Shown here piece by piece: positions 4,381-45,592 of a stretch of DNA of 64,000 nucleotides (position 1 is the stretch's first letter; every line of letters begins with the position of its first letter). The notes below the pieces were generated by a model that was not told the DNA's origin, searched no databases, and worked only from the letters and a program-made list of their open reading frames with translations. The position numbers and the translations under genes were made by a program. The DNA comes from Stachybotrys elegans. Its lineage: Eukaryota; Ascomycota; Sordariomycetes; Hypocreales; Stachybotryaceae. The DNA lies in assembly GCA_020746835.1 (NCBI GenBank), contig JAGPNK010000008.1, forward strand, positions 496,001 to 560,000. The letters run 5' to 3'.

Positions 4381-5569
4381 TGAGAGCCAGGAAGAAATGA
4401 TCCGGATGCCCCACCAACCCAGATTGCTGTGTACCGTACCTGGGGGTTCTCGCAAGGCAGCTCTATCAACTACACCAGATAGAAAGGACCGTCGCCAGGA
4501 GGAGTACCTGTACGCATGTGCCCCTGTCTTGCGCATGCACCCAAGATAAAGGGGATTGTGGCAACAAATAGTGGTTGATATCACTGCTGTATGTAGCATT
4601 GGGAGCCTCCCTGTAAGACTTTCACATGACTCGGGCCGCGCGTTATTACACATGTAGGTGGCCTTCCAAGGTGGGGGCTTGCGAGAGCCATCAAGTCCGG
4701 AAGCGAGAAAAGCTGGCTGGTTTCATCACGCAGCCATGCAGAAGAAAGGCGGAATAAAAAATACAACCGGAGTATGTAGTCAGTCCCCATTAGGGGTTGA
4801 ATGTGGACTCTGATAACCAGCATCTCCTGACATCAGACCTGTCACCAAGACCCCTGCAAGGCGCCGGTTGGGGACAGGCCAATGCCCCTCTACTATGACG
4901 TAGACGCTGGTATCCGACAACCCAATTCCCTGTCGCCCAATCTGTTTGCCCAATTACATATGCCATCGGGCCACAGTATCTCGAACCAATCAACTACCTA
5001 GATATCTCGTCGGCTCGGGCAGCTGAGCGATCCAACTGCTCCTCTTCTGGCATCCGCGTCTCTCGGTCATGGAGTGGGTACGGAGGAAAAAACTCATGGG
5101 CCAGTGCGGCAGCGCTGCTTCAGCCCGTTCGCAGATCTCATCTGTTCTCGTCCCCGACGCGAGACTTGTGGCACGATAGCCGACACAGATTCGTACGTAG
5201 GATGCCTTTGCGTGCTTCGCCACGTCATGTATCATGGGACAATGCTCCTGATTCTGATGATCGCAATGGCTTTTCGAGACGACTTTGCCCGCACTTCTCG
5301 ATCCGGCTTGTCCAAGAACCCCTGGGAGAGCATAGTGAGCTGCTGAAAACCATGCAAAATTGCCCATCCACCCTGGTGATTTTACAGTGAGATCACCAGT
5401 GCAAGCACCCTTACTAATTTTGCAACATGGGAAACAATTACGGCCCCAACTGCCGGCCAGAGTCGATGTTTGAAACGTGGAGATAGCCCGATCTGATCTT
5501 TCCCTTAGAGAACGGACGGCATATTCCAGTAAGGGTCAGTCCTGGTGGTGTGATGTCCCATATAACAAC

Positions 5570-8082: not shown

Positions 8083-9914
8083 ATGGCTTCGTATATCGGT
8101 GCCTCCGTGACGGCGCCCACGTCTTTCCGACTTTCGCAGCTCGCCGATGCCGCCTACGACACGCAGTTCCGCGTCTTTCAAAATGCCCACGAATCCCACC
8201 CGGACCTGGCTCACCTGGTCCTCCTCGTCTTCGAGGCTGTCCTGGAGGTTGTCTGCGTCAGTCTGCCCGGCTACATAGTCGCGCGACTTGGCCATTTCGA
8301 TGCCGACAAGCAAAAGTTTCTCGCAAACCTCAACGTCATGCTCTTTACGCCTTGCCTGAGTATGTTCAACATCCCTATCAACTTCTACTGGGCGCATTAC
8401 TGACCTCGACCTCACCAGTCTTCACCAAGCTCGCATCCCAGCTTAGCGCCGACAAGCTCTCCGATCTCGCCATCATTCCCGCCATCTTCATCGTCCAGAC
8501 TATGGTATCATGGGTTGTCGCTACCCTCGTTTCCAAGGCGTTCCGATTCAACAAGCGGGCCTCCAACTTTGTAACTGCCATGGGTGTCTTTGGAAACTCC
8601 AACTCGCTGCCCATCTCCCTCGTCATATCTCTATCCCAGACGCTCAAGGGTCTGCACTGGGACCGCATCCCCGGAGACAACGATGACGAAGTTGCCGCCC
8701 GAGGCATTCTTTACCTTCTCATCTTCCAGCAACTGGGTCAACTCGTGCGCTGGAGCTGGGGCTACCACGTTCTCCTCGCCCCCAAGGATAAGTACCCCGA
8801 GTACCAGCAGCACCTTATTGAGGAGGGCCAATACCGAGACGACCCGCAACACGACGAGGCTGAACGAAGCCCCCTCATTGAGGGCCTGGACGGCGACACC
8901 GAGGATGACTATGAGGATCGCAGCGATTCGGAGGCGTACATCCCTGCCGGGCGCACTCCCATTGGCGGTACATCTAGGGTATCTCTCGCCGATGCTGGCG
9001 ACGACGATATCCTTCCCAAGAAGCGACTCGCAAAGAACCCGACAGCTCTCGGCGGTAACCACCCGGTTCTCAACGGAGCAGATAGCCACATACTTTCTTT
9101 CCCCAGCATCCGCCCAGTTGACGAGGTCGACACTCCTCCCGAGACCGGCGTCATTGCCCGAAGCCGACGTTCCATCTCGAACAAGGCGGTGGCCGTCAAG
9201 ACCAGAATTGCCGAGGCCTTCACTCGCTTCTACCAGGGCTTGCCCAAGCCGGCTCAGTCGCTGCTCTGTGGAATTAAGAAGGTCGGAAGCAAGGCCAACA
9301 ACTTCATCTGGGAGTTCATGAACCCTCCTCTGTGGGCCATGCTCCTTGCTGTCCTGGTGGCTTCTGTTCCTGCACTGCAGAGTTTGTTCTTCGAAGAGGG
9401 TTCTTTTGTCAAGAACAGTGTCACCAGCGCCATAAAGTCGAACGGCGGTGTTGCTGTTCCTCTGATTCTTGTCGTGCTGGGCGCCAACCTCGCGCGCAAC
9501 ACCATGGCCAAGGATGACGAGCATGATCCTGAGGAGGAAGTGATCGGCACCAAGCTGCTTATTGCTTCCCTCATCAGCCGCATGGTTCTGCCCACCTGCA
9601 TTATGGCGCCGATCCTGGCCCTCATGGCTAAATACCTACCTATCAGCATTCTCGACGACCCCATCTTTGTCATTGTCTGCTTCTTGCTCACTGGCGCCCC
9701 CAGCGCCCTTCAGCTGGCTCAGATCTGCCAGCTTAACGCAGTGTACGAGAAAACGATGGGACGAATCCTGTTCCAGAGTTATGTCATCTGGTAAGTCGTT
9801 CACCTTACACCAATACAACGTGACCATCGCTAACGCATATGTAGGATTCTTCCTTCGACACTTGTCTTGGTCATGATGGCTCTTGAGGTGGTCGAATGGG
9901 CCACCCAAGCCTGA
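8083..9914 (+). CDS. Auxin efflux carrier (PIN-like) family membrane transporter
   Basis: CDS join(8083..8359,8419..9790,9845..9914), 572 aa. Two introns (59 and 54 bp) have ACTGAC/CTAAC branch points. The first join restores the family motif TPCLIFTKLASQL. The N-terminal half has hydrophobic helices around residues 40-200 with conserved TPCL and GNSNSLP segments. An acidic, Ser-rich cytosolic loop follows (about 245-390), then five hydrophobic helices including VPLILVVLGANLA and LLTGAPSALQLAQI. This is the arrangement of the fungal auxin-efflux-carrier/ECM3 family (membrane transport protein, PF03547-like). Substrate is not known; some yeast relatives are placed in the ER. The start gives MASYIG with no competing upstream in-frame exon. 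Its 3' end faces the PPOX-like gene. Confidence 0.92.
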
Positions 9915-27190: not shown

Positions 27191-27825
27191 ATGGCTCTTC
27201 CGAAGCGTATCGTCAAGGAAACGGAGAGGCTGATGGCTGAGCCGTACGTTGCCGCCTTCGCAATACCTGCAAAGCTTCCCAAGGCTTTCAACTGACGAGT
27301 TGCGCAACAGAGTCCCAGGCATCAGCGCCGTGCCTCACGAGGAGAACCTACGATATTTCGATGTCGAGATTCACGGTCCTGCACAGTCACCCTACGAAGG
27401 TCGGTAGACCAAAGCCTTGCTCTTATCCCCGCGACCACCTATCTGACAAGTCTTCAGGCGGTATCTTCAAGCTCGAACTCTTCCTGCCCGACGACTACCC
27501 CATGACGCCACCCAAGATCCGCTTCTTGACCAAGATCTTCCACCCCAATGTCGACAAGCTCGGCCGAATCTGCCTCGACGTTTTGAAGAGTCTGTCCCCG
27601 TCCCATCCGAGACGGATCTTCTCTTCCAACCCGCTGACGTACTCTGTAGACAACTGGTCGCCCGCCCTTCAAATCCGCACGATTCTTCTCTCGATCCAGG
27701 CGCTTCTTGGAGCCCCAAATCCCGATGACCCCCTCGCAGCAGACGTGGCCAAGAGCTGGAAGGAGGATGAGCAGGCGGCCATCGCCACCGCGAAGGAGTG
27801 GACTGCGAAATATGCCAAATCTTGA
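27191..27825 (+). CDS. UBC13: Ubiquitin-conjugating enzyme E2 Ubc13
   Basis: CDS join(27191..27243,27311..27399,27458..27589,27650..27825), 149 aa; introns 67, 58 and 60 bp. Hallmarks of Ubc13 are [11 protein letters not shown] with the catalytic cysteine at about residue 86, HPN upstream of it (FHPNVDKLG), [10 protein letters not shown], and [29 protein letters not shown] at the end. With its Uev partner (Mms2) this E2 makes Lys63-linked ubiquitin chains for error-free post-replication DNA repair. The third join gives LKNNWSP; the donor there is GTCTGT, which departs from consensus, but the reading frame and family alignment leave little choice. An uninterrupted frame from 27361 reads through introns and is not the protein. 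Confidence 0.95.
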
Positions 27826-28362
27826 TTGATTCTGTGGCAGGACTATTCTTACTCAATTTTAGCGGAGGCGATTACATCACGGAATGACTTGTGCCTTGAG
27901 GGAGTTCGGGTCCAACTATCTAGAGAAAACGCTGTCATAAGACCGATGAGATATGCATGCTTTGACAGGCTATATGAAGATCAGGAAGACGAGCTTTGTT
28001 CAGTGCACAAAGAAGCAGAGGACATGTTTCCAACGTGTTTTTATTTTCTCAAGAATAAATTCTTAGCCTGCGAGTCAATACATTGCACAGTTGTCGGAAA
28101 ACACGATCCTAAGCGAGGCGTGGCGGATACATGACGTTGTGGCGATTGAAACCCTAAGGAGGGGTTTTTGAAAGCAAGCAGAACCTCACTGAGGCATGGA
28201 CCCGAGACCTTCCGTCGATACCGATGTGGGATTAAGAGTATGTGATCTGATTGACACATCAATTTGGGTATAAGCAGTTTTAGGTCTGCTCTTCGAGTTG
28301 ATGTATCTACAAGGCTAGAGTACACAAAGGGAAGTCGAAATGCGTTGTTAGACGCGTATTGA
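27826..28362. other. Intergenic, converging UBC13 and ATP7 ends
   Basis: About 540 AT-rich bases between converging stop codons, consistent with two 3' untranslated regions. No gene is seen. Confidence 0.5.
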
Positions 28363-29112
28363 TTACACAGCGGCGAGATCGCCAAACTTCTCCTGTAGTG
28401 GGTGTCAGCTCTGTGCGAGTCGTAGGATCCCGAGCAACGTACCTTGTATCCCGGCACCATCCAGCGTCCCTTGGAAACGAGCTCGGCGGTCTTCTCGTCG
28501 ATGGACTTCTCGGCGGCAGCAACCTCGTCCTAGAATTGGTGAGCACCTCCATCACAAGCACACAGGTGTCCAGACGTACGACAGTGAGGTCCTCGAAGGG
28601 TCGGGCAGACTCGATGTTGTTCAGGGTAGCGGCGAGGTCCTTGAGCTCGAGGTCGACGGCCTGCTTGGTGGCCTCGGCGTTCTTGACAGCCTCAGCCTCG
28701 AAGACATCGATGGCCTTGAGCTGACGGCTGACGTCGTAGGTGGCGGGCTTGAAGTCCTTGAATCGCTTCTCGATCTCGTCGATGACGGCCTGGTTCTTGA
28801 GGACGGATCGGTAGGCGGAGAAGTCCACGGTCGTGGGCTGCTCGGACAGCACCTGAACCTTGCGGCGGGCATCCTCGTTGCGCTTCTTGAAGGCCTGGAG
28901 GGAGGACACGGTCTGGCCGCGGAGGCCCAGTGAGCTGGTCACCTTGACCCAGTCAAGCTTGAGAGCCGCGCTTCGCTGTTGGAGAGGAGAAAGAAAATTA
29001 GCTCAACAGATCCGGGCTGTCGCGCGAAGGCAATGCCGCCTCGACGCGGGTCTTGCATGCTCAATTGTCATCACAAAGGGGGAATGAACCGGACGAAACT
29101 CACCGTAGCCAT
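28363..29112 (-). CDS. ATP7: Mitochondrial F1Fo ATP synthase subunit d (Atp7)
   Basis: CDS complement(join(28363..28392,28443..28529,28580..28975,29104..29112)), 173 aa. The first exon is only nine bases (ATG plus two codons) before a 128-bp intron; the last is 30 bases. The protein reads [21 protein letters not shown], then the peripheral-stalk helices [19 protein letters not shown] and [20 protein letters not shown]. It ends [18 protein letters not shown]. Length is normal for fungal subunit d. It is part of the stator linking F1 to the membrane sector on the matrix side. All three introns have strong donors (GTGAGT, GTACGT, GTACGT). Confidence 0.95.
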
Positions 29113-29624
29113 TTTGTCGATGAGTGCGATTGGGGGTGGACGGAGGAGTGTGATGATTGATGGTCTTGACTGACTTTGCCGAACTTGACCGGTCAGGGAA
29201 GCCCAGCCAAGGGACGTCACGTGACGGACCTCGAGCCTCCAAATTCACCCGACATGGAATTTAGATATACGCCGTAAGACAACCAATTCCAACATTGAAA
29301 AATGCTCATAATTCACCAAGCATGAACTAATGAACCGCGCTTCTTCCGTTGCTGACACTGTATCCATGACTTTCGCGGCTATCACGGACGCTTCTGAAAT
29401 GACTCGACACAATCACAGAGACACGGAGACACGTAGACACGACAATGGATCAAGCTCACAATAAGCTCATTGCTTCGGCAGCCCTTTTTATTTTGTTAAT
29501 CCGAACCGGTTTAATCCATACTTGCTTCTCAAGAACCATGTACAACTCTTGACAATTATCGAGTCAACTGTGCGCTTCATGCTACCAGCCATGCCTGTTT
29601 GATGGGCAAGACGACAACTCATGT
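29113..29624. other. Intergenic between EGD2 stop and ATP7 start
   Basis: About 510 bp holding the ATP7 promoter and EGD2 terminator. No gene is seen. Confidence 0.5.
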
Positions 29625-30379
29625 TCAGATACTTAGAGCCATGATGGAGTTGACAATGTCATTGTCGTTCTCCTTGAGGGCCTTGATGGCCTTCTTGCGG
29701 CTGACGTTGGCCTGGGTCATAACCAGCTCGATGTCCTTATCCTCGAGACCCTCGGCGTCGACCTCCTCACCGTCATCCTCGTCGTCGTCCTTCTTGGCCT
29801 CAGCAGCCTCGGGAGCCTTGCTGGGCTCGCCGTGGTTGTGGCCAGAGTGGTCCTCGGCGTTGGCAGCGGCGAGCTGCTGGGCAGCAGCCTGCTGAGCCGT
29901 GGCGTTCACGTCCTCAATCTTGGCCTCACCAAAGACACTTCCAAGAGTCAGCGACAAGCACCAGGTTTTTACAAGGCTCGACAAACTTACATGTAGGTGT
30001 TGCTGTTGGGAGACTTGTAGACCTCGGGGGTGTTGATGACGAAGAGCATCTGTTCGCCAAGTCAGCTTCCATCTCTCTCCTCGCCCCCTCGGCGGGGCAC
30101 CACATAAATGCGTCCGCATCACCCATCAGGAGCTTCACATACGTTCTTGGGACGGCGGAGAGTGACGCGAGTGATGCCAGGTACTCGGGTCAGGTGGAGC
30201 TTCTCGAGGGCCTTGCGAGCCTTCTTCTCGTTGCGGGAGTGAACGATGTTGGTGGAGCCGGCGGGCAGGCTGCCATCGCCAGTCTCCTCGACGTCGGAGT
30301 CATCGCTGGAATCCTGATCCTCGACGGTAGGGTTCTGAGGCTCGTCGTCAGGGAGCTCCTCGACTCTGGGGTTCGCCAT
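29625..30379 (-). CDS. EGD2: Nascent polypeptide-associated complex subunit alpha (Egd2)
   Basis: CDS complement(join(29625..29937,29991..30049,30143..30379)), 202 aa; introns 93 and 53 bp. An acidic N-terminus precedes the NAC domain ([21 protein letters not shown], then [27 protein letters not shown]). An Ala/Gln and acidic linker ([12 protein letters not shown] ... [11 protein letters not shown]) leads to the C-terminal UBA domain ([34 protein letters not shown]). With the beta subunit it binds at the ribosome exit tunnel and prevents mistargeting of nascent chains. The second intron ends GGAAG, a non-YAG acceptor that the NAC-domain alignment requires. Start [10 protein letters not shown] is the first ATG. 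Confidence 0.96.
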
Positions 30380-31115
30380 TTTTTCGATACTGATGTGGCG
30401 GGCACAAGTTAGCTAGCCTTGTCGAATTTACTGAAACCCAAATCACCCCGCAGTTGCTCGTCGCCGTGGCCGCTGGAACGAGCTCCGGGTAGTAACAACG
30501 GGGCAAAATAGAGGAGGGACGGGCTACATACGAGGTTTATTAGCCTGGCGTCGTCTGTTGTAAGGTCGGTTCGTTGGAGTTCGTCTTGCGATTTTGTGAT
30601 GCAAAACCACAGCAGAGGAAATTCTAGGGCTTGGTGGTGGGAGGGAACGGCTAAGCTCAATTAGGTAATCAAGGTTTATCACTTGCAGAATGAGAATGGG
30701 CGGGTGGTTCGGTGGTTCAATTGCCTCGCAGCAGCCTCCGCCGCCGCCGCCTGTCGCCTGTCGCAAACGGCTGGAATACTGTGGAAAACATGATGACGGC
30801 AATCTACAAAACACTCGAGTAAACACGGAATTTGGTTGATATGCCCTGTATTTGCTTTTTACAACAATTCACCGTATGCTCATGAATAATCTCCTTTGCC
30901 TTTTAAATTCATTGGATCTCTGAATTTCCGTGACGACGCCGTTCATCATCAAAGATGAAATGTGACATACAGCCCTTCCAGAACGGGAGCAAAGGTAAAT
31001 CCAGCAGCCCTTTGCCGCCAACTATGCCTTGCCTATCCGGATCCGGGTCCATGCCCAACGATCTAATTCCAGCTTCCAAACATCCTCCGTAGACTCCCAA
31101 GCCCAAACCTCGCGA
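30380..31115. other. Intergenic between RPL14 stop and EGD2 start
   Basis: 735 bp with EGD2 promoter and RPL14 terminator. It contains a GCCGCCGCCGCC-like stretch near 30,740-30,752. No gene is seen. Confidence 0.5.
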
Positions 31116-31621
31116 TTATGCCGAGGCCTTGATCTTGGAGAGGGCCTTGCGTTCCTCGAATCGGCGCTGCTTCTTGAGTCGCAGAACCTTGAAGCGATCG
31201 AAGTCGGTTAGGGCCTTCCTTCGGGCAATCTGGTCGCGCTTCTTGGCCCAGTTGGTCTCCTTCCACTTGGCGTCAATCTCCGACTTTTCCCAGTCCTCCT
31301 TGAGGCTGGCGTGGCGGGCACCGCGGTTCAGGCCCTCGACGGACAGGGAAGACAGGAGGCACTTGGAGAGGGGGACGGATTGGCGGGGGACGACGAGCTC
31401 GGGGTTTGAGGAGGGTCCTTCGACAAGAACCTGCGGGCCAGTTAATATTTCCTGCTCTCTCGTGTCGCATTCAGGTCGTCGAATCAACGTACTCGCTTGT
31501 GGTCGACGATCTCGACAATAGCGGCCAGGCGGCCAGCGAAGGGGTGGTCGCCGTTGATGACAACAACGCGGCCAACCTCAACGAGGCGCCAGCTGGAACC
31601 CTCAATCAATGCTTCGCCCAT
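31116..31621 (-). CDS. RPL14: 60S ribosomal protein L14 (eL14)
   Basis: CDS complement(join(31116..31430,31493..31621)), 147 aa, intron 62 bp. The join reads IVDHKRVLVEGPSS. The N-terminal KOW/SH3-like fold (SWRLVEVGRVVVINGDHPFAGRLAAIVEI) and the eL14 core (KEDWEKSEIDAKWKETNWAKKRDQIARRKALTDF) are both present, followed by a basic tail rich in Lys/Arg. Length is typical for fungal eL14. The start MGEALIEGSSW has a CACCATGG context. The in-frame ATG at 31714 lies within a probable 5' untranslated intron and is unlikely to be used. Confidence 0.96.
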
Positions 31622-31632
31622 GGTGACAGTGT

Positions 31633-31730
31633 CTGGTGGTGATTGGTCAGTCCCAAATCGGATTTTTGAGGTTTGGATGCGGTGGGGGAATATTGCTGTG
31701 CGTGCTGGGTTCAAGGAGAGGTTATCATAC
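31633..31730 (-). other. Probable 5'-UTR intron of RPL14
   Basis: On the minus strand, donor GTATGA at 31730 is followed 98 bp later by CACCAG, with a good branch site ACTGAC 12-18 bases before the acceptor. It ends 11 bases before the RPL14 start codon. Leader introns are common in fungal ribosomal protein genes. Transcript evidence is not available here. Confidence 0.5.
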
Positions 31731-31979
31731 CGGTAGTCGAAGATGCTGTTCCGTTAGTAGAGAGTGGATGGTGGATGGATTCACACACGCCGAAGACGCC
31801 AATAACTTTTTGCTGACCGGCTCTGCAAGTGTGCGGGCAGAAATCATCCCTTGCCCTAACCAAAATTTACGGTCCTTTGTTCTACCGGTTCCGACCACCA
31901 TCTGTGGATCCTGGGGGGATGAGCTGAATGACTAAGCTTTTCAAGGCTCCGTGCGCTAGGCGAGAATAAAGTCTTCAAC

Positions 31980-32381
31980 ATTTTTTTCTTCACTCTGACC
32001 CTTTACTCTCTTGTCCTTCGACACTCGACCAAACTCCTGAGAATCATGGTCTCCGTATGGTAAGTGACGATGCATTTTTTCCTTCTGCCGCAACTCTTAT
32101 GATGAGGTAATTTGCGATTGATTCTTTCCGGTGGCTCTCTTTCGCCGGAGTGGCTAAATCGGACTGATACATGATAGTCAATTCTTACATATTCTGAATT
32201 GGTTGCGTTTCGAACCTAGCATGACATTTTTACACCATTGTTATTGCATTCGCTAACCTATGGTTTGCAGAACTAGAATTCGCTGCTGTACACCTTACTG
32301 CATCGCGATGCAACGCGGCTGCAGAGAACAGGCGGACAATTCCCTTTCGTCGCATCATTATACCATGGCAACAGAGAAAAG
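31980..32381 (+). ncRNA. Putative spliced non-coding transcript, possible snoRNA host
   Basis: A promoter-like C/T-rich stretch leads to a strong intron. The donor is GTAAGT at 32060, the branch GCTAAC at 32251-32256 and the acceptor TTTGCAG ends at 32270, giving 211 bp. Joining the flanks gives ATG GTC TCC GTA TGA, so the only upstream ATG is followed by a stop and no useful protein results. Another GTAAGT lies at 32382. The intron holds a C-box-like ATGATGA (32099-32105) and a CTGA D-box-like motif about 65 bases later (32164-32167), as in an intron-encoded C/D snoRNA. I could not find a convincing terminal stem or a known rRNA target, so this stays tentative. It would share a divergent promoter with RPL14. 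Confidence 0.3.
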
Positions 32382-32609
32382 GTAAGTCAGAGTGTAGAAC
32401 CGTGTAGGGCCGTCTAGATAAATTAGATTCAACAATAAATGATGAATTTTCCGTCCATATACAATGAACATATAGAAGCCTTTCGTTCTTGGCACGAGAT
32501 GACATTTCTGGGGGCGCTGCAAACTACCTATGCAAAGTATGTGGAAATGGATCGTGAATTCGTACAAGTTACACTAGTTCCGTTCTAATGGTACTCCATT
32601 GGCCTCCAT

Positions 32610-33109
32610 TTAAGCCTTGCCCTTGCGCTTAAGGTATTCTTCCTCCTCGTTCTTTAGCTCAGCATCGAGCTTGGCGCCCTGAGAGGGTTCGTTGCCGTGC
32701 AGCTTGGCCTGTAGAATGTTAGCGAATGGCAGGAATCCCAATGTTTCGAGAAGCCGACGTACGGGCAGCGTGGGGTCCTTCTTGAGCGCCGTGGTTTCGA
32801 GATCTTCGTGGCTCTTAGACTTTTGCTAGGAGGATTGGTTAATATCATGTAATCGGAACGGGCCCATGGCTACAAACCTCCTCAGCAGCCAATCGGTTGG
32901 CGATTGATCGCTCATCCTCTGCTTGTCATCAGCGGCTGTCGTGCAATTGATAAACAGCATGGGTAAGGTTTACTGGAATCGAGGGACTGGTGAGAGTTGA
33001 CCTGGCCCTCCTCGTAGGGCGTCGACTGGTTCAGCTCCGACTGCTTGACATTTCGCTGGTCGCCTGCTTCGTAGACGCCGCGGTTGCCGACCTGAGAGTA
33101 TCCGCTCAT
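32610..33109 (-). CDS. Small conserved hydrophilic protein, function unknown
   Basis: CDS complement(join(32610..32708,32763..32825,32878..32918,32974..33109)), 112 aa from four exons; introns 54, 52 and 55 bp with GTACGT, GTTTGT and GTAAAC donors. The protein starts MSGYSQVGNRGVYEAGDQRN. It continues with NQSTPYEEGQ, DERSIANRLAAEEQKSKSHEDL and KDPTLPAKLHGNEPSQGAKLDAELK, ending in a basic KRKGKA tail. It is charged, poorly hydrophobic and probably largely disordered or helical. I recall similar short proteins annotated as hypothetical in many ascomycetes, but no function. Four exons that all keep frame and have standard signals are good evidence that it is real. It diverges from the Fmp46-like gene. 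Confidence 0.8.
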
Positions 33110-33998
33110 TGTGAGTGTTTTGTATGAGAATTAAGTAGATTGGATTGACGAATAGTGTCGTTATCTTGCTGTTCAATGTTGATTGACGTGAATTGCTGCA
33201 GAAGCGTTGGAAGGTCGTTTGTGCTTTTTGTACCATCGGCATGCTCCACTGATCGCGATAATCGACGTCATGATATGGCGAGTAGTTTGACATCACCGCG
33301 TGTACGTCATAGAGAAACGCCCAGATTACAAGAGAAGCATAGCAGGATCGGCAAAGGCCCAGCCTGTGCCTGAGTCTGAGTTTTGAGTTGTAGGGTCTGC
33401 ATTCTGGATTGCTGGCAATGGGGTTATTCTAAGGGCCATTTCAGCTCGGGATGTGAGCACAACCCATGTGCATATTCCATGGCCTCGCATGAACCAACCA
33501 TATCCAGGAGCAAGGATGTCCGATTTTCGAATCTGATTGAGACCACTCTACGTCCCTTCTATTCACCTGACATCAGATAGAGGCCAAGGCGAATAACTTA
33601 GTACTCGAACACCATTACTGCAACCTGCCATGCCTTCAATCTACCCTGTAACATTGAGTCTGCCGGTGTGTGCAAGCCAGCAGGGCTATAAACACTGCAC
33701 CCCTTTGCAACCAGGTACAGTGATCAATTGTATGATGCAATACAGTATATGAAATGGTCATGCCATAACTGCAGAAGATGTCGATGGAAGAGCCTCCAGT
33801 TCGGCGCATCTCTCTGTTGTAACATGTTGTTGGGGGACATGTGAAGCGCACAGGCCACACGCAGCTCAGTCATCACGTACTCCAGCTATCCGATTTGGGA
33901 TAGGTTCAGTCAACCTCGTTCGTCATTACGTCCCACTGGCAGGTACCTCCTGCTAGATTCACGTCAAGGTCCGATTTCACGCTCCAAAGGCCATCAAC
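33110..33998. other. Divergent promoter region
   Basis: 890 bp between the small protein gene and the Fmp46-like gene. It contains an AGGTACCT element at 33941-33948, about 50 bp before the latter's start codon. No gene is seen. Confidence 0.5.
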
Positions 33999-34536
33999 AT
34001 GTTCCGATTCGTATGTCGCAGCAATCGCCCCCTCCAATGCCCAATGACTCATGCTAACACCAAGCACAGCGCAAAACCCTCGACATCGTCACCGTCTTCC
34101 ACAAGGCGAGCTCGCCTGCCTCTGTGCGGGTGAGCAACCTGATGAAGCAGGCCTCGGCCAACGCTTCAGCCGGAGCCACCCTCGACCAGGCCAGCGACCA
34201 CAGCGCACAGAACAAGTTCTCTCGAGATCCCTTTGAGCTGAACATAACTGAGGACCCTCCTACGACCGACCAGGTGCAGACCATTCTCGGCTACGTGGGC
34301 AAGGGTGGTATCTCTGCCATCATCAAGGGCGCCAAGGACGAGCAGGACGCCCTCAAGCGATTCAAGGAGAACAAGGATAGCTTCTTCAGGCCTACGGTAT
34401 GTCATTGCGCAGCCGAATATCTTGTCATACTGGACGCTGTTCTAACGAGCACAGGTTGTCGATTGGAACAACGGCAAGGCCGTAGTGGGAGACAACGAGT
34501 CGGAGATCTTGAAGATGCTGAGCCAGAAGGAGTAAC
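33999..34536 (+). CDS. FMP46: Fmp46-like mitochondrial redox protein (thioredoxin fold, DUF1687)
   Basis: CDS join(33999..34010,34070..34396,34456..34536), 139 aa. The first exon is 12 bases (MFRF), followed by a 59-bp intron with GCTAAC branch; the second intron is also 59 bp. The protein reads MFRFRKTLDIVTVFHKASSPASVRVSNLMKQ. This matches the Fmp46 family, whose fold resembles thioredoxin and where the N-terminal strand-loop (TVFHKASSPAS) replaces the usual CxxC region. The segment TTDQVQTILGYVGKG is the conserved centre, and RPTVVDWNNGKAVVGDNESEI is the final strand-helix. No CxxC is present. Function in mitochondria is poorly known. An uninterrupted frame from 34051 reads through the second intron and is not the protein. 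Confidence 0.88.
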
Positions 34537-35706
34537 AGACCCGATACGTATACCGGTTTACTGAACAGCCAGGATTATTTTCTTGTAAATTAAATGGTTT
34601 GTATGATTGTCAAACGAGAGAGGCAGCGGGACCAACGAGAACGACCCCAAGCCGAGATGGATTGATCTGCTGAACAGCAAGCAATCTCATAGCTTGCTTG
34701 CCTGCCAGTGTATGGAACACATGCTTGCAAAGCAAAATAAAACCACTTTCCACTCATCGATGCGATCACATTCCCTCGTGGGTTTCATCATCATAAATCG
34801 CCGTTGTGCTTGCTTGCCAGGTTAGTAGGTAGGTACCTGGTTGGTTTCCGTGACCTTTGCGTCTGCAGCTGGCGGATCCATACTGTTTGATGGGTTGCCA
34901 AACGATATTCGGTGTTAGTTCCTTGACGGCCCGAGGCGGTTGGCAAAGAACAGGGAAAGGTGTTTGTTGACACGCTTTCATCCTCCCCAGATTTAAATGC
35001 GCGCTCCCGTTTGGCAGGTTGCCGACCCTCTCCTTCCCTTCCAGCCACCACTCCTTCTGTTGACCATCGTTGACCACCAGCTCGAGCATCCTCAATCGCG
35101 AGCAAAGAGCACAAACACGGCCGACGAGAAGACCTGGCTCTAGGCTCCGTGTGATCCTGCACACGAGGCTTGGTAACATACATCTCTCACAAGATCCAAC
35201 GCCCAAGCAATCAGCCCTCGATGAAGAGTGCGCCAAACGTGTTTGCTGCGCTTCAAGTACCTGGGGAGAACATCCTTCTCACCTGAACCCTCGCTTCTCA
35301 CATTTTTCTCACCAACACTCCCGTTCTCCCTTCTTCTCGCCTTAACCCGCGCTCCTTCGACTTCGACCTTCCGCTATATCGCCAACCAACGCAGCTATCC
35401 CGCTGTGCATCATCCTTACTCACTTGTTGCCGGCCTTGGATAGCGCGTGCTTTGTTTCAGCGTCGAAGCTTCATTGCATTAGCCTACAGCGTTCAGTACT
35501 TTCATCTGCCACCCTTGGTTCAGCGTTCGCTCTCCTCACAACAGGCATTGCCAGTATCTGTTCTCAGTGAGCGAAAATTCGAGGTGAGTCCACTCCTTTT
35601 AATGTCCTCGTGCAAGATCGAGGATCAACTCTCAAGATCCAGGCACAGCATTCGAGCCTCAAAGCTGACCCGGTAAATACAGGCGGTGGAATGACCAAAC
35701 GCCACC
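34537..35706. other. Promoter and long leader of the large ORF gene
   Basis: 1.2 kb. It contains AGGTACCT at 34831-34838 and C/T-rich sequence from 35,020 onward. Short frames here have no family resemblance. Confidence 0.5.
35584..35682 (+). other. Probable 5'-UTR intron of the large ORF gene
   Basis: Donor GTGAGT, branch GCTGACC at 35664-35670 and acceptor ATACAG enclose 99 bp. The ATG at 35707 follows 24 bases downstream in a perfect GCCACCATG context. This supports 35707 as the translation start. Confidence 0.6.
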
Positions 35707-38700
35707 ATGAATGGACATTTACCTGAGGGCGACGGCCCTCCCCATGCCATTCTTGACCCGGTTGCATTCCCAAAGATCCAAGCCAGCCACATGCCAGCTA
35801 GCCAGAGAACAATGTTCACTCAGTTCTATCCAAATGGCTTACCTGAGGTCTACAACATGGTCACCCCTTCGGACAAGACTGCCGTGGCCCAGACCTATGT
35901 CGATGACCTCCTGCCCGTCGGATTCTTCACCAACGCACCACCTGATGCCAAAGCGCTGTTCTCGACAGCTGAAGGCAAACAGCCCTTCCGACATATGAAG
36001 CACATACTACCCGTCCGTTGTGTCCATCTTTGGAACAAGCACGAGATCCAAGCTGTGTGCAACTCCATCCGCAAAGCGTTCTGGCACATCATGAAACAGA
36101 TGAGACAGCCATACTGCTGGGACGATCTCTGGACCTACTTTGATGCTCACGACCTCTACCACTATGGTGCCCTCAACCTCTGGAATGTCGTCAACACGCT
36201 TTTCGACGAAAATAAAATCATTTTCGCAGACGTGATGAAGGAAGCCGCGGTACAGGTTGGGCAATGGACCGACGCGTGGATCGTCAGCGACCACAACAAG
36301 CAAAAGCTTCGCCAGTGGGATGAGCAAACGGTCTCGGTTCTTCACCTCCTGGATGCATGCGACTGGGAGAGTCTGGGGAATATCCCAGACAACATTCTTG
36401 GTCTCGTTGCTAGTGCTCTGAGAGCACGCCGAGAGATGATCGCCCAGGACCGAAAGCGTCGAGCTTCTGACGCTCCTATTGATCTGAGCTCAGCATGCCG
36501 GAGTAACCAGGTGCAGAACTGGCTCAGCGGCCTTGACCAAAGCATTTTGAAGATGCAAGCCTCGCATCCGAAAGTAGCCATGGCGAACAGGTTCCAACCG
36601 ATTGGGGTTCCCCCACTAGATGTCCCAACAGTCGCAATTCTTCCAGACACTGCACAAAGCTCGTATCATGTTTACCAGGGAAGGCACTACTTCGTGCCTC
36701 ACGGCAAGCCCTCTGACAAGACCAACGGACCGGCTCTCTCGAACAAGACAGTTGAGCAACTAAAAGAGTCTGCCGATGCCGCTATGGGTAGGCGCAACTC
36801 TTCCACTAATGCAGAGACCATCACAATTGCCAAAGGTACCTCGAAGTCTGCCTCGAGCGTTACCGAAACCCGACGCTTCGTTGAGGGACCTTCTGCATCC
36901 GAGCTGTTGGAAAACATTGACAAGAGGCCTATGGCAAGTTCTCGAAAGAGGTCAGACTCAACTCCATCGCTCTATGCTGGGCCACCTGCCTGGAGGAACT
37001 TACGAGCAGATGGCTTAAGCCCACGCATTGTCACTATCTCTCAGCCTATTTCTGTCATACAGGAGTATAGCGAAATGACAGAAGGAGAAGAAAGCCCGGA
37101 AGTAGCTACGAAGCCATCTCTTTCTGGCCAGGCATCTGATGTTGGTGATGTCGATGGTGCTGGACGATCCGACTAGAAGTCGAAGTCACCGCAACCATTG
37201 CATGAAGAAAGGAAACGACCGGAATCAGGGCCAGCTCCCGAGGGAAAGCAGATTGATTACCAAGAGGCCACTTTCGCCCCATCAACAGGTCCTGGGGCCC
37301 CGCCATTTGCCCATCACCAGACAGAACTACGGTTCCCGCTGGCATCCCAGTCCCTGGAGCAAGCAGCCGAAGCTATCCAAGCAGAGTTGCCTTACCCAAA
37401 GCCCAACTCTCAGGGCCCGAGTGACCTGGAGTGGCGCCGACCATCAAACGAGATGAATACATTGCGCAAGGTACCCTCCATCGAGTATCAGACTGGTCAT
37501 CTGGGCACTGGCAAGGCTTCAGGGGTCGCTCAAGCTCCTGCCGGCTACGTCCACACTCGAAGGCCTTCCAACCCGCTTAGCACCGCAAGCGAGCATGCAA
37601 ATACTACCCGAGTAAGCGGCGACGTTCGGAATCATGTCACAAGCCAACTTGGAGATCAGAATCGGGACAATGGCCGGTTGGATACGTCTCAGCCAGAGAA
37701 TCGCACTTTCCGGCGGAATTATAAAGGCAATGGCCGTCGTGCTTCTATTCCGAAGCCTGCCTATGTTGAAGACACGCAAATGGCCGGCCTTCACCAGCAG
37801 CCTAGAGATGGTGGGCGGCAAATCGGCATTCAATCACAGCACCAAGCTCCTCAAGGATTTCGCAGATGTGCAAACATCGGGCTCAATTCTGGATACCAGC
37901 CGTGTGACTGTGACGACTGTGGACGAAGGAACAGATCCGTGTATGTCAGGGTACAAAAGGGTCCATGGAATAAGAGCCCTGCTTTTCAATCGGAGCTACG
38001 GGAAGGACTGGGCGCTCATTTCGGCGCGGTCGAGGAGGTGAACCCGGTATCGCCCAAAGGTGGCACGTACATTGTGAGGTATAGTGAACCCAGCCAGAAT
38101 GAAGATGAAGCAAGGCGGCTAATAGGGTACTGCAGGTTCCGCAATGAACAGTCAACACTCGATGCTCTGAAGGCGGCTAGAGACATCATGCCAACATCGA
38201 AGATCAACGTCTCTATTGCCCCGTGGAACAGGACCAAATGGAACTCCAACTTTGCGGAAGAAAGACCAGATGCCTTGCCTCTGCAACTGGCTAGGGTCAA
38301 TGACATTAATACCGCGATTCCGTCACACCAAGGCCTACCTCCTTTGCCATCTGCCTTCCCCCAGTCGTTTCCCAGCGTGGGCCAGTTCCTGACACAAGCA
38401 TCTGCTCCTCCAGCACCTGCAATGCCCCCAGCGCACTCCTTCAACCCCTATGCACCCGCAACAATACCGCCTAGGCAACAAGCTATTTCGCACGCACAGT
38501 TTCATTATCGTCGGGGCCCTGCAGTGCCACTTTACCACAGCAATTGCGACCCAAGACGACAGGCAGCTACGCAGAGCCAATATACCCCTCCGACATATTT
38601 GGATGCAGCGGATCATCCTGCTATTGGAGTCAACACAGATTTCCACCCAGGACTGCAATACCAAATTGGTCTGAACCCCTTGGTAGAGCAGGAGCCGCAT

Positions 38701-40704
38701 CATTTCCTCACCGGAAGACCCTCACCTCATGCTACGCCAATGGAAACAGAGCCGTGGTCTAAGCCAACAAATGAAGATTTCCCATCATCATCTAAGGGAG
38801 AAGACACGCCTGATTCTGAGCAAGCCGATGAGGAAGAGAGTAAGAGGGTTGTCTTGCAAATTGCATGTGCGACTGAAGAAACCGAGCAGAACGACAACAC
38901 TGTGCTTGATTCCAAAGCCAAATCTCCGTCGGAGACTCAGACACCATCGACTGCCTCGATTGAAGGGAATCATGCGAATATCAAGGAAGAGGATGCGAAA
39001 ACCACCAAGCTCCCGATCGAGGGTGAGAAGTCCTCGGAACTGCCAGTTCAACCCGGGACACCAAAGCAGCCCTCTATTGCGAATACTGAGACGTCCATGG
39101 ATGGAATTGGTGCAAATGACACACGAAAGCATCAACGAGTGCCCAGCATCTATTCAAAGGAAGAAGTCAAGGACCGGAAGAAGGCATGGGCTAGGATTCC
39201 GATGCCGCTGACCTCACAAAGATCCAAAGAGTCCAAGGTAGATACTCATATGAATCTTGCGGATTCTCATGCTCCTATCAAGCCGTCACCAATTTCCGCT
39301 CCTTCTTCCGATGCAGCCCAAGAGGCGTCTATCGGGCCCGAGACCGTTGAGAAGCCATCGTCTCATGTGGCTCGTGTTGACGAGCGCAAGGCGGTGGCGC
39401 ACCAGTCTGAGGCGCCGTCCAAAGCAACAGAGAGGGATAACCCAAGCCAGGAAGCGAGAGGGAAGGAAACAAGTTCCGCGGGAAAAGTGCCCAAGAACGA
39501 CGTGCCGCCTGCCCAGAATCTCCTCTCCGAGCAACAGGTTGCTAGTGATGGTCGTTCGAAGAACGACAAACAACCTGCACGGTCCATTCAACTCAAGGAT
39601 AATTCTCGCCCAGAGTCTCCCATAGAGCCTGTGAAGAACGACAAGTCTGGAAGAGGTAGTCCCGAGCAAACGCATGGGTCTGTGTCAGCGCTTGATTCTC
39701 TAGAATCTTCGGGTGTTCTGGTTCCCGCAAATGTCGGTAACCAGGTTCCGGAGAAACAGCAGGGCGGAACCATCAAGAAGAAGTCCAAGAAGAAAAAGAA
39801 GAAGTCTCAGCCTGCAGCGGGCGACGAAGTGGGCAACGATCCTGAAGCACGCACCGCGACGCCTGTGTCTACCATCGGCAGATCCAAGGGGGTTGGCGTT
39901 GCATCTGATGGGCTTGCCACTCCACCAGTCAACTCTGATCAGACTGCGGATGTAGATGTTTCTGCACACATAGAGACCCTCAGACTCATTCCTGGCCGTC
40001 CTCTCCCGATTCCCCCGATCCGAAAGCGCGCGTCTCCCGAAGACGTCTTGCCCCAGCCTTCTGATGACTACTCAGGAGAGGGCAGTGCAACCGTGAGACT
40101 CCCTGATTACTCTGACGGCAAAGGAAGCTCCTTGAAATTTCCCAAGCGTGGGAAGAAAGGGGGCCCTTCCATCACCTACAAGCGCAACGGAGAACTGGCT
40201 GGCTCGGAAAGTCTGCCTCAGGATCTGGTGGATGGATCATTTGCGGCGACGCTACCAGCTCACATACGCCAGTCTGTCGCGGAACAGGATGGGCAAGGGA
40301 CTGTTCGAAAGTCTCCGTCCAAAAGAGGATCCATCAAGCGGCTACTCGAAACATTCACGCCGCCAGATAGCCACAAGGGTGCACCGTCCTACGACAATTC
40401 CAACGACACCAAGCCACGAGACAAAGCGATGGGAAACTTCACAAAATACACCGACGGCGCCCGGGAGACTCCGTCAGCGGCAACAGCCTCCGGATACTCT
40501 GCGGAAAGCCAGCGACGTCCCAAGACGGGCAGAAGCCCCGTGAAAACAGAGGCACCCTCGTCGTCTCCGAGCAAGGCGGAGCAGGAGAAGCTCTCGCTGA
40601 ACGATCATGAGTGGCCATCATTGTCCGCCTCGCATCAACGGGTGCCCGCGACGCCCTCCCCAAAGCATACCTGGCGATCCAAATCCAAGCCCGATGTTAA
40701 CTGA
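35707..40704 (+). CDS. Large unidentified protein whose frame is interrupted by one in-frame TAG
   Basis: One frame runs from 35707 to the stop at 40702-40704: 1665 codons with a single TAG at codon 490 (37174-37176). The first 489 residues include a conserved-looking, Trp-rich helical region about 95-200 (HLWNKHEIQAVCNSIRKAFW; WDDLWTYFDAHDLYHYGALN). Past the TAG, the frame continues without a break for 1175 codons. It includes a CDCDDC cysteine cluster and an RRM-like stretch (RSVYVRVQKGPWN, about 735-840), long Ser/Pro/Lys-rich disordered segments, a lysine run near 1355 suggesting a nuclear or nucleolar signal, and a C-terminal LSLNDHEWPSLSASH motif. I do not recognise the family. Two separate genes only 21 bases apart in the same frame is implausible in fungi. 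The stop is probably bypassed by RNA editing, readthrough or a weak intron, or this allele is broken. An RNA-binding role is only a guess. Confidence 0.75.
37170..37182 (+). promoter_or_regulatory. Hairpin presenting the in-frame TAG; candidate A-to-I editing or recoding site
   Basis: CGACT at 37170-37174 pairs perfectly with AGTCG at 37178-37182, leaving loop A-G-A; the A of TAG (37175) is the first loop base. Outer pairing is possible between 37164-37165 and 37185-37186, and between GGTG at 37156-37159 and CACC at 37187-37190. The base before the A is T and the one after is G, the neighbours favoured in fungal mRNA A-to-I editing. Such editing would convert the stop to Trp (UGG). Confidence 0.5.
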
Positions 40705-41637: not shown

Positions 41638-42239
41638 GGCTGTGCTGCTGTGCTGGAGGAGGAGGGAGGTGTTTGCGAGTCGGATCCGTGGCTCAATTGC
41701 TGTTCGTTCGCTTCGTCCTTTCTGTTTGACGGGAGAGCTTCCCTCAACGAACGTTGGATTCCTCAGCTACGGCACCTTACGTAATCTGAGACTTGTGCAC
41801 ACCACATGCGGCATAAAGCCGGGTCTGCATAATCGCCGCGTGTTATGCAGGCAAGCCGATTTCGCACTACCAACGATAATCACCAAGTCCGGGCCTCCCT
41901 TTGGCCCCATAACTTTTTCCCGCCCTAGTTCGGACCTGCGTCGCCGTATCTCCAACGTCTTCCTTCTGAACCCTCTAGCGAACCCTTTCCACCCTCACGC
42001 GTTCGCAGCGACAACGTTTCTTTCCAGGTAGGCGAAACCCCCACCAGCTGAATTGAGTTCCTGGCGCGCTGGCGCAGGGCGTGTCGACTTCCGAACGACG
42101 AGGCCGACGGGGCGCACGAGGCATCTTCCTCGGCGAATATATGCGATACAATTTGCTCTGCTTCTTTTCTTTTCTTTTTTCTTCTTCTTCTATCTCTAGT
42201 TGCCCATTGCTAACTGCTTTGCTCCTCGCTTCCTTTAGA
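41638..42239. other. Shared divergent promoter, complex I B8 / MPC2
   Basis: About 600 bp between divergent starts. The side next to MPC2 has a strong pyrimidine tract (42,160-42,205, TTCTTTTCTTTTTTCTTC-like). A GTAGGC donor at 42030 and TTTAG just before the MPC2 ATG could mark a leader intron, which is unproven. Confidence 0.5.
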
Positions 42240-43040
42240 ATGGCGCCTTCTAGCAACGTATTCCGCGCGGCCCAGCCGCTGTTCCGCCAAGGCGTCTTCG
42301 CCCGCCAGGCCTTCCGCCCTCAGCAGTTCACCCAGCAGTTCCGACAGCAGAGCAAGCGATGGCAGAGCGCGGCGTCAACGGCCGAGCAGTCCTGGTTCAA
42401 GAAGATGTGGGAGAGCGAGGTCGGCATCAAGACGGTGCACTTCTGGTATGTTTTTCAATACGTGGTTGTTGGGCAATCATGGATGCTCATTTTCTGCTTC
42501 TTCTTCTTTTTTTCTCTCTTTTTGCTGAACAGTTCGTCGCAACAGGGCTCCCGTCATGAAGGTACGTAACGAGACGACGGCGATAAGAGGGACGCTGTGA
42601 AATCGCCGGGGGGAGACTTCGGGTAGAGGTATTCGGTTTGGAAGCTGACGCTTGTTGCTGCAGTGGGCTCTCGTCCTCGCCGGTGTCGCTGATTTCGCCC
42701 GTCCTGCCGAGAAGCTGTCCTTGACGCAGAACGCCGCCCTGACCGCCACCGGAATCATCTGGACGCGCTGGTGCTTCGTCATCAGGCCTAAGAACTACCT
42801 GTAAGGCGGCACCCCCTTCCCTCACCTTATGCGCTTTCTCGAAAGCATTTCTGACACAGCTCCCTGTCTTGCAGGCTGGCCGCCGTCAACTTCTTCCTCG
42901 CGATAGTCGGTACGGTTCAGGTCTCCCGTATCGCCATGTACGAAATGGACAAGAACAAGTCTATTGCCGGTGCCGTCGAGGATCTCAAGGAGGACGTCAA
43001 GGCAGAGGTGAAGGAGGCGAACAAGGCCGTCAAGGCTTAA
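42240..43040 (+). CDS. MPC2: Mitochondrial pyruvate carrier subunit 2 (MPC2 type)
   Basis: CDS join(42240..42445,42546..42561,42664..42800,42875..43040), 174 aa; introns 100, 102 and 74 bp. The second exon is a 16-base microexon. With it the sequence reads VHFWAPVMKWALVLAGVADFARPAEKLS, the MPC2 signature. LTQNAALTATGIIWTRWCFVIRPKNYLLAAVNFFLAIVGTVQVSRI then covers the remaining helices. The 60-residue N-terminal extension is rich in Arg/Gln/Phe and acts as mitochondrial targeting sequence in this family. The C-terminal tail is Lys/Glu-rich. MPC1 and MPC2 form the inner-membrane heterodimer that imports pyruvate. A read-through of the first intron gives a plausible-looking but wrong longer frame. 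Confidence 0.94.
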
Positions 43041-43916
43041 ATGTCCTTGGTCAGTTGGGTGTCGCAAGATAGGCGTTGGCCATTTCCAGGCTGAAACATG
43101 CGAGTCGCCCGCCGCATGGACCGGATTAAAATATTCGACGTGGGCCTGGATGGCCAAGATTTCCAGCTGCAAGGCCCAATAGATCATGTATAAATATAGG
43201 GCAAACTAGATTTGCCTTGATGATGGCTATTACCGTTGGTGCCACTTGGGAAATGCCGGGCAAGGGTTTCATTTTGAGCCACGTGGGCGATATTATAGAA
43301 ATTCCAAATACGGATCTTTGTATACCGTGCTCCAATAGCCGTGATCACCGTGCACACGGCGTTGTTTGCCTTGGACACGCGAGCAATAGATATATCAGGC
43401 AGTCCGGATACACCCTACACAGGAACTATCTAGATGCAGGGTAGACGTGGGTACTAATAAAGTTGCCTTGATGGGTTTGAGCTTCTCAACAACCCAAGAA
43501 CCTTACGGCACATGGAAATATAAGTGCACAGGCGCCCATGCGTCTGCGTCTCTTCCCACTCCTCCCTGGATACCATCCTTGTGCAACCAGTATTATACTG
43601 CCCTACCCGTACATCATACAACTGTACAGTTAGCTTCCTGTCGGCACCGCATCATTATTCCTCCGGCCCCTGTTTCCAATCGGTAAGCTCCATTCGTTAC
43701 GAGAGCAAGGTCGCAGTGTTGACTTTGGCCGCTTCCTCCCGATTTGAGCCGGAGCGATATTTTTTCGATACGCCTTGGTTTACCTTTCCCCCTACTAATT
43801 CACCCTTCCATTTGACCCAACAAACGCGGGCGTTGGCACCCATTTGCTGATTGGTCTCACTCTGTTTGTAAGCACGCGCTTGTCACAGCCACCTCATCCA
43901 CCACCATCAATTGGCA
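43041..43916. other. Intergenic, promoter of fumarase
   Basis: 875 bp. It is AT-rich just after MPC2, then C/T-rich from about 43,540. No gene is seen. Confidence 0.5.
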
Positions 43917-45083
43917 ATGTCGTCTCGAGCTACAGCTGCCATGTGCCGGGGCGGGTCGAGCTTGCCGAGGGTATGCAGGCACTTGTCCTCCGTCCCGCGC
44001 CGCCTCCCGTCCTGCGCAGCTTCAACCCCGCAGCTTCATCTTCGACTTGGATTCGCTTCCAGCAAGATTGCCTCCTCCTCCTCCGCCCTCAGAACCTTCC
44101 ACAGCACAGCTGCCACCATGTCCAACACCCGAACCGAGAGCGATGCCTTTGGCGAGGTCCAGGTCCCCGCCGACAAGTACTGGGGCGCCCAGACGGAGCG
44201 CTCCCTCGAGAACTTCCGCATCAACCAGCCCCAGGACCGCATGCCTCCTCCCATCATCAAGGCCTTCGGTATCCTCAAGGGCGCCGCCGCCACCGTCAAC
44301 ATGCGCTTCGGCCTTGACCCCAAGATTGGCGCTGCCATCCAGCAGGCCGCCAAGGAGGTCGCCGACGGCAAGCTGCTCGACCACTTCCCCCTCGTCGTCT
44401 GGCAGACTGGCTCCGGCACCCAGTCCAACATGAACGCCAACGAGGTCATCTCCAACCGTGCTATTGAGATCCTAGGCGGCCAGATGGGCAGCAAGAAGCC
44501 TGTCCATCCCAACGACCACGTCAACCGCAGCGCCTCTTCCAACGACACCTTCCCCACCGTTATGCACATTGCTGCCGTTCTCGACATTGAGCAGGAGCTT
44601 CTGCCCGCTCTCCGCAGCCTCCGCGCCGCCCTCCAGGCCAAGGTCGATGACTTCGAGGCCAAGAACATCATCAAGATCGGCCGCACCCACCTCCAGGATG
44701 CTACCCCCCTCACCCTCGCCCAGGAGTTCTCCGGCTATGTCGCCCAGCTCGACTTTGGTATCAAGCGCATCGAGGGCTCTCTCCCCGATCTGCGCCTGCT
44801 TGCCCAGGGCGGTACAGCTGTCGGAACTGGCATCAACACCTTTGAGGGCTTCGCCGAGGCCATTGCTGAGGAGGTCACCAAGATGACCGGCACAGAGTTC
44901 AAGACGGCCCCCAACAAGTTCGAGGCCCTCGCTGCCCACGATGCCATTGTCCAGGCCCATGGTAGTCTCAACACCCTCGCCGCTTCCCTGTCCAAGATTG
45001 CCCAGGACATCCGCTACCTCGGCAGCGGACCCCGCTGCGGTCTCGGTGAGCTGATCCTGCCCGAGAACGAGCCCGGAAGCAGC

Positions 45084-45121
<38 letters not shown>

Positions 45122-45592
45122 TCTGACCATGGTCTGCGCCCAGGTCATGGGCAACCATGTTGCCACCACCATCGGTGGCATGAACGGCCAGTTTGAGCTC
45201 AATGTGTACAAGCCCCTCGTCATCCGCAACCTCCTCCACAGCACCCGACTGCTGGCGGATGGTATGAGGTCCTTTGAAAAGAACCTCGTTGCTGGCCTCC
45301 AGGCCAACGAGGAGAAGATTGCCAGCATCATGAAGGAATCGTAAGTTGTGCCACACCAGCCATTCTATGTACTCGACCACTAACCGCGCTTCTCTTGTCC
45401 AGGCTCATGCTGGTTACCTGCCTCAACCCCAAGATTGGCTACGACATGGCCAGCAAGGTCGCCAAGAACGCCCACAAGAAGGGTCTTACTCTCAAGGAGA
45501 GTGCGTTGGAGCTCAACGCGCTGACCGAGGAGGAGTTCGACACGCTGGTTAAGCCCGAGTTGATGGTTGGACCCAGCCCTTACAAGGGCTAG
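43917..45592 (+). CDS. FUM1: Fumarate hydratase, class II, mitochondrial (possible cytosolic form from an internal start)
   Basis: CDS join(43917..45340,45403..45592), 537 aa, intron 62 bp. An Arg/Ser-rich presequence of about 65 residues precedes the class II fumarase core starting [24 protein letters not shown]. Active-site landmarks are [49 protein letters not shown] and the signature [16 protein letters not shown] (about residues 387-400). It converts fumarate to malate in the TCA cycle. A second ATG at 44118 (codon 68, GCCACCATG) begins exactly at the mature enzyme and could give a cytosolic form. The frame is open two codons upstream from a TTG, but ATG 43917 is the first usable start. 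Confidence 0.97.

Follow-up and report, generated by a model that had tools for sequence, protein, structure and literature searches.

A likely A-to-I edited stop codon within a 1665-codon reading frame of Stachybotrys elegans

We analysed a long reading frame in a window of 64,000 nt (the whole stretch of DNA under study) from Stachybotrys elegans. The frame is interrupted once, by a TAG at codon 490, and this TAG is very likely a premature stop codon that is corrected by A-to-I editing of the mRNA in sexual tissue, where UAG would become UIG and be read as Trp490. This reading draws on the continuity of the frame, the coding content before and after the stop, the predicted hairpin, the neighbouring bases (5 of 6 preferred), the poor signals of the introns that could remove the TAG, the in-frame TAGs of PUK1-type and AMA1-type genes in the same genome, and an Ame1-type cofactor that carries Met-Val. 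The same evidence supports the editing mechanism proposed in an earlier note on this DNA.

In vegetative cells, where the mRNA would stay unedited, translation would end at 489 aa. A deaminase of the Tad2-Tad3-Ame1 type would, in sexual tissue, convert A37175, which follows a U and is predicted to lie in a hairpin loop, to inosine; UIG would then be decoded as Trp, and translation would run on to give a protein of 1665 aa. Editing of the 35707-40704 transcript, its timing, the enzyme responsible and the long form as a working protein are what we infer from the evidence below. The parts of the frame are as follows (all on the plus strand).

35707..40704, plus strand: whole frame, interrupted by a single TAG and closed by TGA at 40702-40704; present once in the genome and without a Pfam or PDB sequence family.
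35707..37173, plus strand: upstream part, 489 codons, the product made without editing; 0.139 bits per codon.
37174..37176, plus strand: in-frame TAG (codon 490) whose A, A37175, is the base proposed to be edited, in the context CT(A)GAAG, 5 of 6 preferred positions.
37177..40701, plus strand: downstream part, continuing the frame for 1175 codons; 0.054 bits per codon.

One frame on both sides of the TAG

Translation of window positions 35707-40701 gave a single frame of 1665 codons whose sole interruption is the TAG at 37174-37176; with the terminal TGA, positions 35707-40704 hold 1666 codons, of which the TAG is codon 490. The start codon, ATG at 35707, is embedded in CGCCACCATGA. The layout of 489 codons, TAG, 1175 codons and TGA (40702-40704) agrees with the 1665-codon count, broken by a TAG alone, that the earlier note had given. 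Its claim that so long an open tail is not expected by chance also held, as 1175 open codons after the TAG have a chance of about 3e-21 at the local base composition. We also scanned 184,018 bases (both strands, all frames) for frames broken by a single stop, a small sample of a genome of 43.4 Mb in 61 contigs, with loci partly picked for kinases or deaminases. Only the 35707-40701 frame was open for 400 codons or more both before and after its stop; at a limit of 250 codons there were three such breaks. The second of these three (L014) was rejected as an edited stop, being a 54-nt intron with full splice signals. The third (L030) is a TGA at 8651-8653 that separates 592 from 326 open codons of the same frame.

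Around the frame, window positions 27241-34564 and 42057-45592 hold neighbours that, judged by eye, are of housekeeping type. Among them are putative genes for an E2 enzyme, ATP synthase subunits d and g, NAC alpha and ribosomal L14; the identity of a fumarase gene is supported by comparison with PDB.

To measure coding content we used a codon-usage score that had been fitted to 30 long frames, none of them the target gene. The score in frame was 0.139 bits per codon upstream of the TAG and 0.054 downstream, and it was negative in the other two forward frames and in all three reverse frames. The 92 codons between the TAG and the first in-frame ATG (37453) scored 0.001, higher than 96% of wrong-frame windows and 99% of flanking noncoding windows; compared with the gene's own windows, the same stretch ranked at the 17th percentile. 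The coding signal is thus weaker downstream than upstream. The proportion of small, polar and charged residues near the TAG was 0.61 and 0.62 on the two sides.

These values bear on the explanation that the TAG is a genuine stop with a second gene behind it, or that ribosomes read through it without editing. The in-frame ATG at 37453 could start a second gene, but there is no intergenic gap, and the 92 codons that precede this ATG score as coding in the same frame. We conclude that the tail after the TAG does not represent a second gene preceded by a leader of its own. A known readthrough context in fungi is UGA CUA, and the codon after the TAG here is AAG, which speaks against readthrough. 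Taken together, a second gene or readthrough is exceedingly improbable, and the UAG lies within one continuous coding frame, as in genes with premature-stop-correction (PSC) editing.

The product of 35707-40704 gave no Pfam family and no significant PDB sequence match; the PDB sequence searches returned matches at chance level only, four with E of 0.45-0.59 and three with E of 0.89-1.8. Residues 1-298, in the upstream part, were predicted with very low confidence to be mainly helical (pLDDT 34.6). The region encoded at about 37852-38331, downstream of the TAG, was modelled with a weak RRM-like order of elements, again with very low confidence (pLDDT 42.4). No match in a fold search reached E 0.001, and several U1A-type RRM chains were among the 50 weak matches listed; the structure models are too poor to name a fold. 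One possible, though rather doubtful, reading of these models is that the edit acts as a developmental switch, in which the 489-aa form would lack the putative RRM-like domain and the edited mRNA would add it only in sexual tissue. As the domain would be attached only after the edit, RNA editing would in that case set the timing of an RNA-binding regulator.

Splice signals and bases around the TAG

Most of the in-frame stops that we met in this genome are intronic, so an intron is the main ordinary explanation of the TAG. This explanation holds that splicing removes the TAG, most plausibly as an intron at 37102-37176 with the TAG as its 3' splice site, leaving a protein of 1640 aa and no editing. 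Three features are relevant here.

37102..37176, plus strand: highest-ranking of the frame-preserving introns that could splice out the TAG, but considered unlikely; donor GTAGCT, CTGAT 41 nt before the acceptor, coding-like content.
35584..35682, plus strand: probable 5' UTR intron just upstream of the ATG, with GTGAGT, CTGAC and CAG; identified by eye, unscored.
37170..37182, plus strand: 5-bp stem with the triloop AGA that holds A37175, a predicted fold; a further outer stem lies at about 37148-37203.

The census of kinase genes shows why introns are favoured beforehand. We scored 123 of 240 first-look candidates, which gave 136 matches, 27 of them with stops, and viewed all 27 by eye. In 26 of the 27 the stops were at introns or exon ends, and the only exonic ones were the tandem TAGs of PUK1. 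Many kinase TAGs were at first apparent candidates; all but the PUK1 pair were rejected by eye as introns or exon ends. Stop-bearing matches to RhoGAP, 2 of 9, were likewise both intronic.

The interval 37102-37176 had been named in the earlier note as the intron that could overturn the editing reading. It was indeed the best of 132 frame-preserving candidates: its length of 75 is a multiple of 3, and GT, CTGAT and AG are all there. Its signals, however, are not those of the real introns of this genome. On a simple consensus count, which is not a trained splice model, its donor GTAGCT scored 2.0, whereas the best donors of 11 TAG-bearing kinase introns scored 2.5-4.0, with GTRNGT at 51-74 nt in 6 of the 11. 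The branch-like CTGAT lies 41 nt before the CTAG acceptor; in 9 of the 11 kinase introns a CTRAY branch is found 14-23 nt from the acceptor (by the same rule, L011 and L013 have none). The probable 5' UTR intron at 35584..35682 gives an example of how introns of the same gene look. The content of 37102-37176 is also coding-like, its coding score ranking at the 46th percentile among windows of the gene itself and at the 95th among wrong-frame windows. A point in favour of splicing is that one published target, FgBUD14, is subject to both editing and alternative splicing (PMC11156358); on balance, we consider it very unlikely that an intron removes the TAG.

The editing reading calls attention to the bases around A37175. 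In the predicted fold, CGACT (37170-37174) pairs with AGTCG (37178-37182) and leaves the loop AGA (37175-37177), of which A37175 is the first base; this is the 5-bp stem with an unpaired A that the earlier note had drawn. The further outer pairing that it had suggested, GGTG with CACC, was absent from the MFE structure, in which a different outer stem spans about 37148-37203. The 5-bp stem persisted in the MFE structure when the flanks were varied from 50 to 250 nt per side, and the 61-mer around the TAG had a folding energy of -21.2 kcal/mol (z -2.6, P 0.0135; 2000 dinucleotide shuffles).

Editing sites in Fusarium graminearum are described as preferring C/U at -2, U at -1, G at +2 and a purine (A/G) at +1, +3 and +4; sites that lack only the +2 preference outnumber those that match throughout, and more of them are also expected (PMC9600606). 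The neighbours of A37175 fit 5 of these 6 published positions, including U at -1, and only +2 deviates, in line with the preference that had been proposed for this site. We compared the site with 3002 control TAGs, taking the thresholds from the values of the observed case, so that the counts are descriptive. A predicted hairpin loop held 947 of the 3002 controls; a stem of at least 5 bp was found at 287, and such a stem in combination with 5 or more of the 6 preferred neighbours at 52. With the additional limit of an MFE of -21.2 or lower, 1 of 3002 was left.

A loop position is a preference (over 62% of sites) and not a requirement of editing. Among genes of known edited type in this genome, both PUK1-type sites and AMA1-type site 2 were predicted to lie in hairpin loops, while AMA1-type site 1 was paired and site 3 lay in another unpaired element. 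The argument from the hairpin therefore stands in that A37175 is in the predicted loop, and is weaker than had been implied, as 947 of 3002 controls share this position and 2 of 3 AMA1-type TAGs fall outside loops. Because loops are common among control TAGs and the positive-control sites are mixed, the hairpin supports the editing reading and does not decide it.

Editing machinery and edited stops in the host genome

We asked which components of mRNA editing the genome encodes. The locus L004 (C45:1637839-1638369) encodes a DUF726 protein of Ame1 type, in which, counted from the catalytic Ser, Met-Val occupies S-31/S-30, Asp +58 and His +98. In FgAme1 the corresponding residues are MV500-501, S531, D589 and H629, and acquisition of Met-Val is described as a critical step by which Sordariomycetes came to Tad3 binding and to editing of mRNA (PMC11087585). 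The spacing of the residues in L004 is that of FgAme1, and two DUF726 paralogues have Ala-Gln and Ser-Leu at the Met-Val positions. Judged by spacing, L004 would be the Ame1 orthologue, with Met-Val placed at the predicted Tad3 interface.

Genes known as edited-stop genes carry in-frame TAGs here. A PUK1-type kinase (L023 2951-2956; C1:2090450-2090455) has the tandem TAGTAG that is the hallmark of PUK1 (PMC4817773), aligned to Trp-Trp of yeast CBK1. An AMA1/CDC20-type gene (L044) has three in-frame TAGs and no other stops there, at 1303, 1453 and 2146 (C56:2089802, 2089952 and 2090645), and AMA1 is itself a published edited-stop gene (PMC11156358, PMC4817773). The third of these TAGs is opposite Trp in both structures compared (Slp1 and human fizzy-related protein), the first is opposite Ser in the sole alignment that covers it, and the second lies outside the alignments. 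The CDC20-type search returned 154 matches, with at least 10 stop-bearing rows among the matches listed; 4 of the 10 were viewed (two AMA1-type, one intronic and one apparent true end), and the other 6 were TAA-only. With these six TAA-only rows left out, the exonic stops in the inspected kinase and AMA1-type genes were TAG in 5 of 5 cases. The catalytic frame of a RID-type DNA methyltransferase (L032; C13:154279-155145) had no in-frame stop, FgRID being a published edited-stop gene. The sole DCP1 match had no internal in-frame stop. These two results count against a simple sharing of the published targets. The markers found suggest a Sordariomycete, a placement drawn from the markers themselves and not from a tree; a search for MAT1-1-2 gave no match, which carries no information, and the fumarase of the window was not informative on the species.

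The explanation that remains to be weighed is that one strain's otherwise intact gene has recently acquired a nonsense mutation, or contains an assembly error, with a TAG that is unregulated and a product that is truncated. It is compatible with the data in that a single genome was analysed, and a young mutation would keep the frame and the coding content as observed. It needs, however, a chance hit on a TAG with 5 of 6 preferred neighbours and a stable hairpin (52 of the 3002 descriptive controls for motif and stem), in a genome where the inspected kinase and AMA1-type exonic stops, the TAA-only rows again left aside, are all TAG. We regard a mutation or assembly error as very unlikely, and editing of the UAG as the best explanation of the frame.

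Relation to known edited stops

PSC editing of fungal stop codons is already known, and the 35707-40704 gene is probably one more example. The closest system is that of PUK1-like genes in F. graminearum, described for PUK1, AMA1, RID, AMD1 and BUD14, and about 70 genes in all (PMC4817773, PMC11156358). The gene analysed here resembles them in having one frame broken by a TAG alone, U at -1, the A in a predicted hairpin loop and a coding tail, and also in that an intron is a tempting and probably wrong annotation, as reported for the published genes in these sources. It differs in that its product has no recognised domain and its edit is proposed from genomic sequence.

In stop-loss editing, which in F. 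graminearum and N. crassa affects the canonical UAG of hundreds of genes, a change of UAG to UGG likewise would lengthen the C terminus. The difference is one of extent: two hyphal examples gain 28 and 11 aa (PMC11169179), whereas the extension here is 1175 codons, is coding and is more than twice as long as the upstream part.

The OLD-ZAO/CHE1 antiviral module shares PSC editing of a UAG, and its editing acts outside the sexual stage (PMC12754623, PMC11169179). In contrast to this module, no C2H2 zinc finger was recognised in the 35707-40704 protein, and no OTT_1508 deaminase was found within the window, the five matches in the genome all being elsewhere. At one other locus (L029), a C2H2 zinc-finger frame at about 1468-2546 on the minus strand and an OTT_1508 deaminase on the plus strand, at about 4964-5164, are arranged divergently. 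An in-frame TAG lies at 2163-2165, upstream of the zinc fingers, and the two genes are possibly an OLD-ZAO/CHE1-like pair.

Edited stops make genes look broken, and annotation pipelines therefore truncate such genes or invent introns (PMC4817773, PMC11169179). The present case shows that a single genome is enough to propose an edited-stop site when the continuity of the frame, the signals of introns, the coding content and controls within that genome are taken together. The set of markers met here, namely the PUK1-type TAGTAG, the AMA1-type TAGs and the Ame1 Met-Val, may help to predict mRNA editing in fungal genomes. If editing is confirmed, a 1665-aa protein of no known family would join those that, like the products of the PUK1-like genes, become full-length only upon editing of a stop codon.
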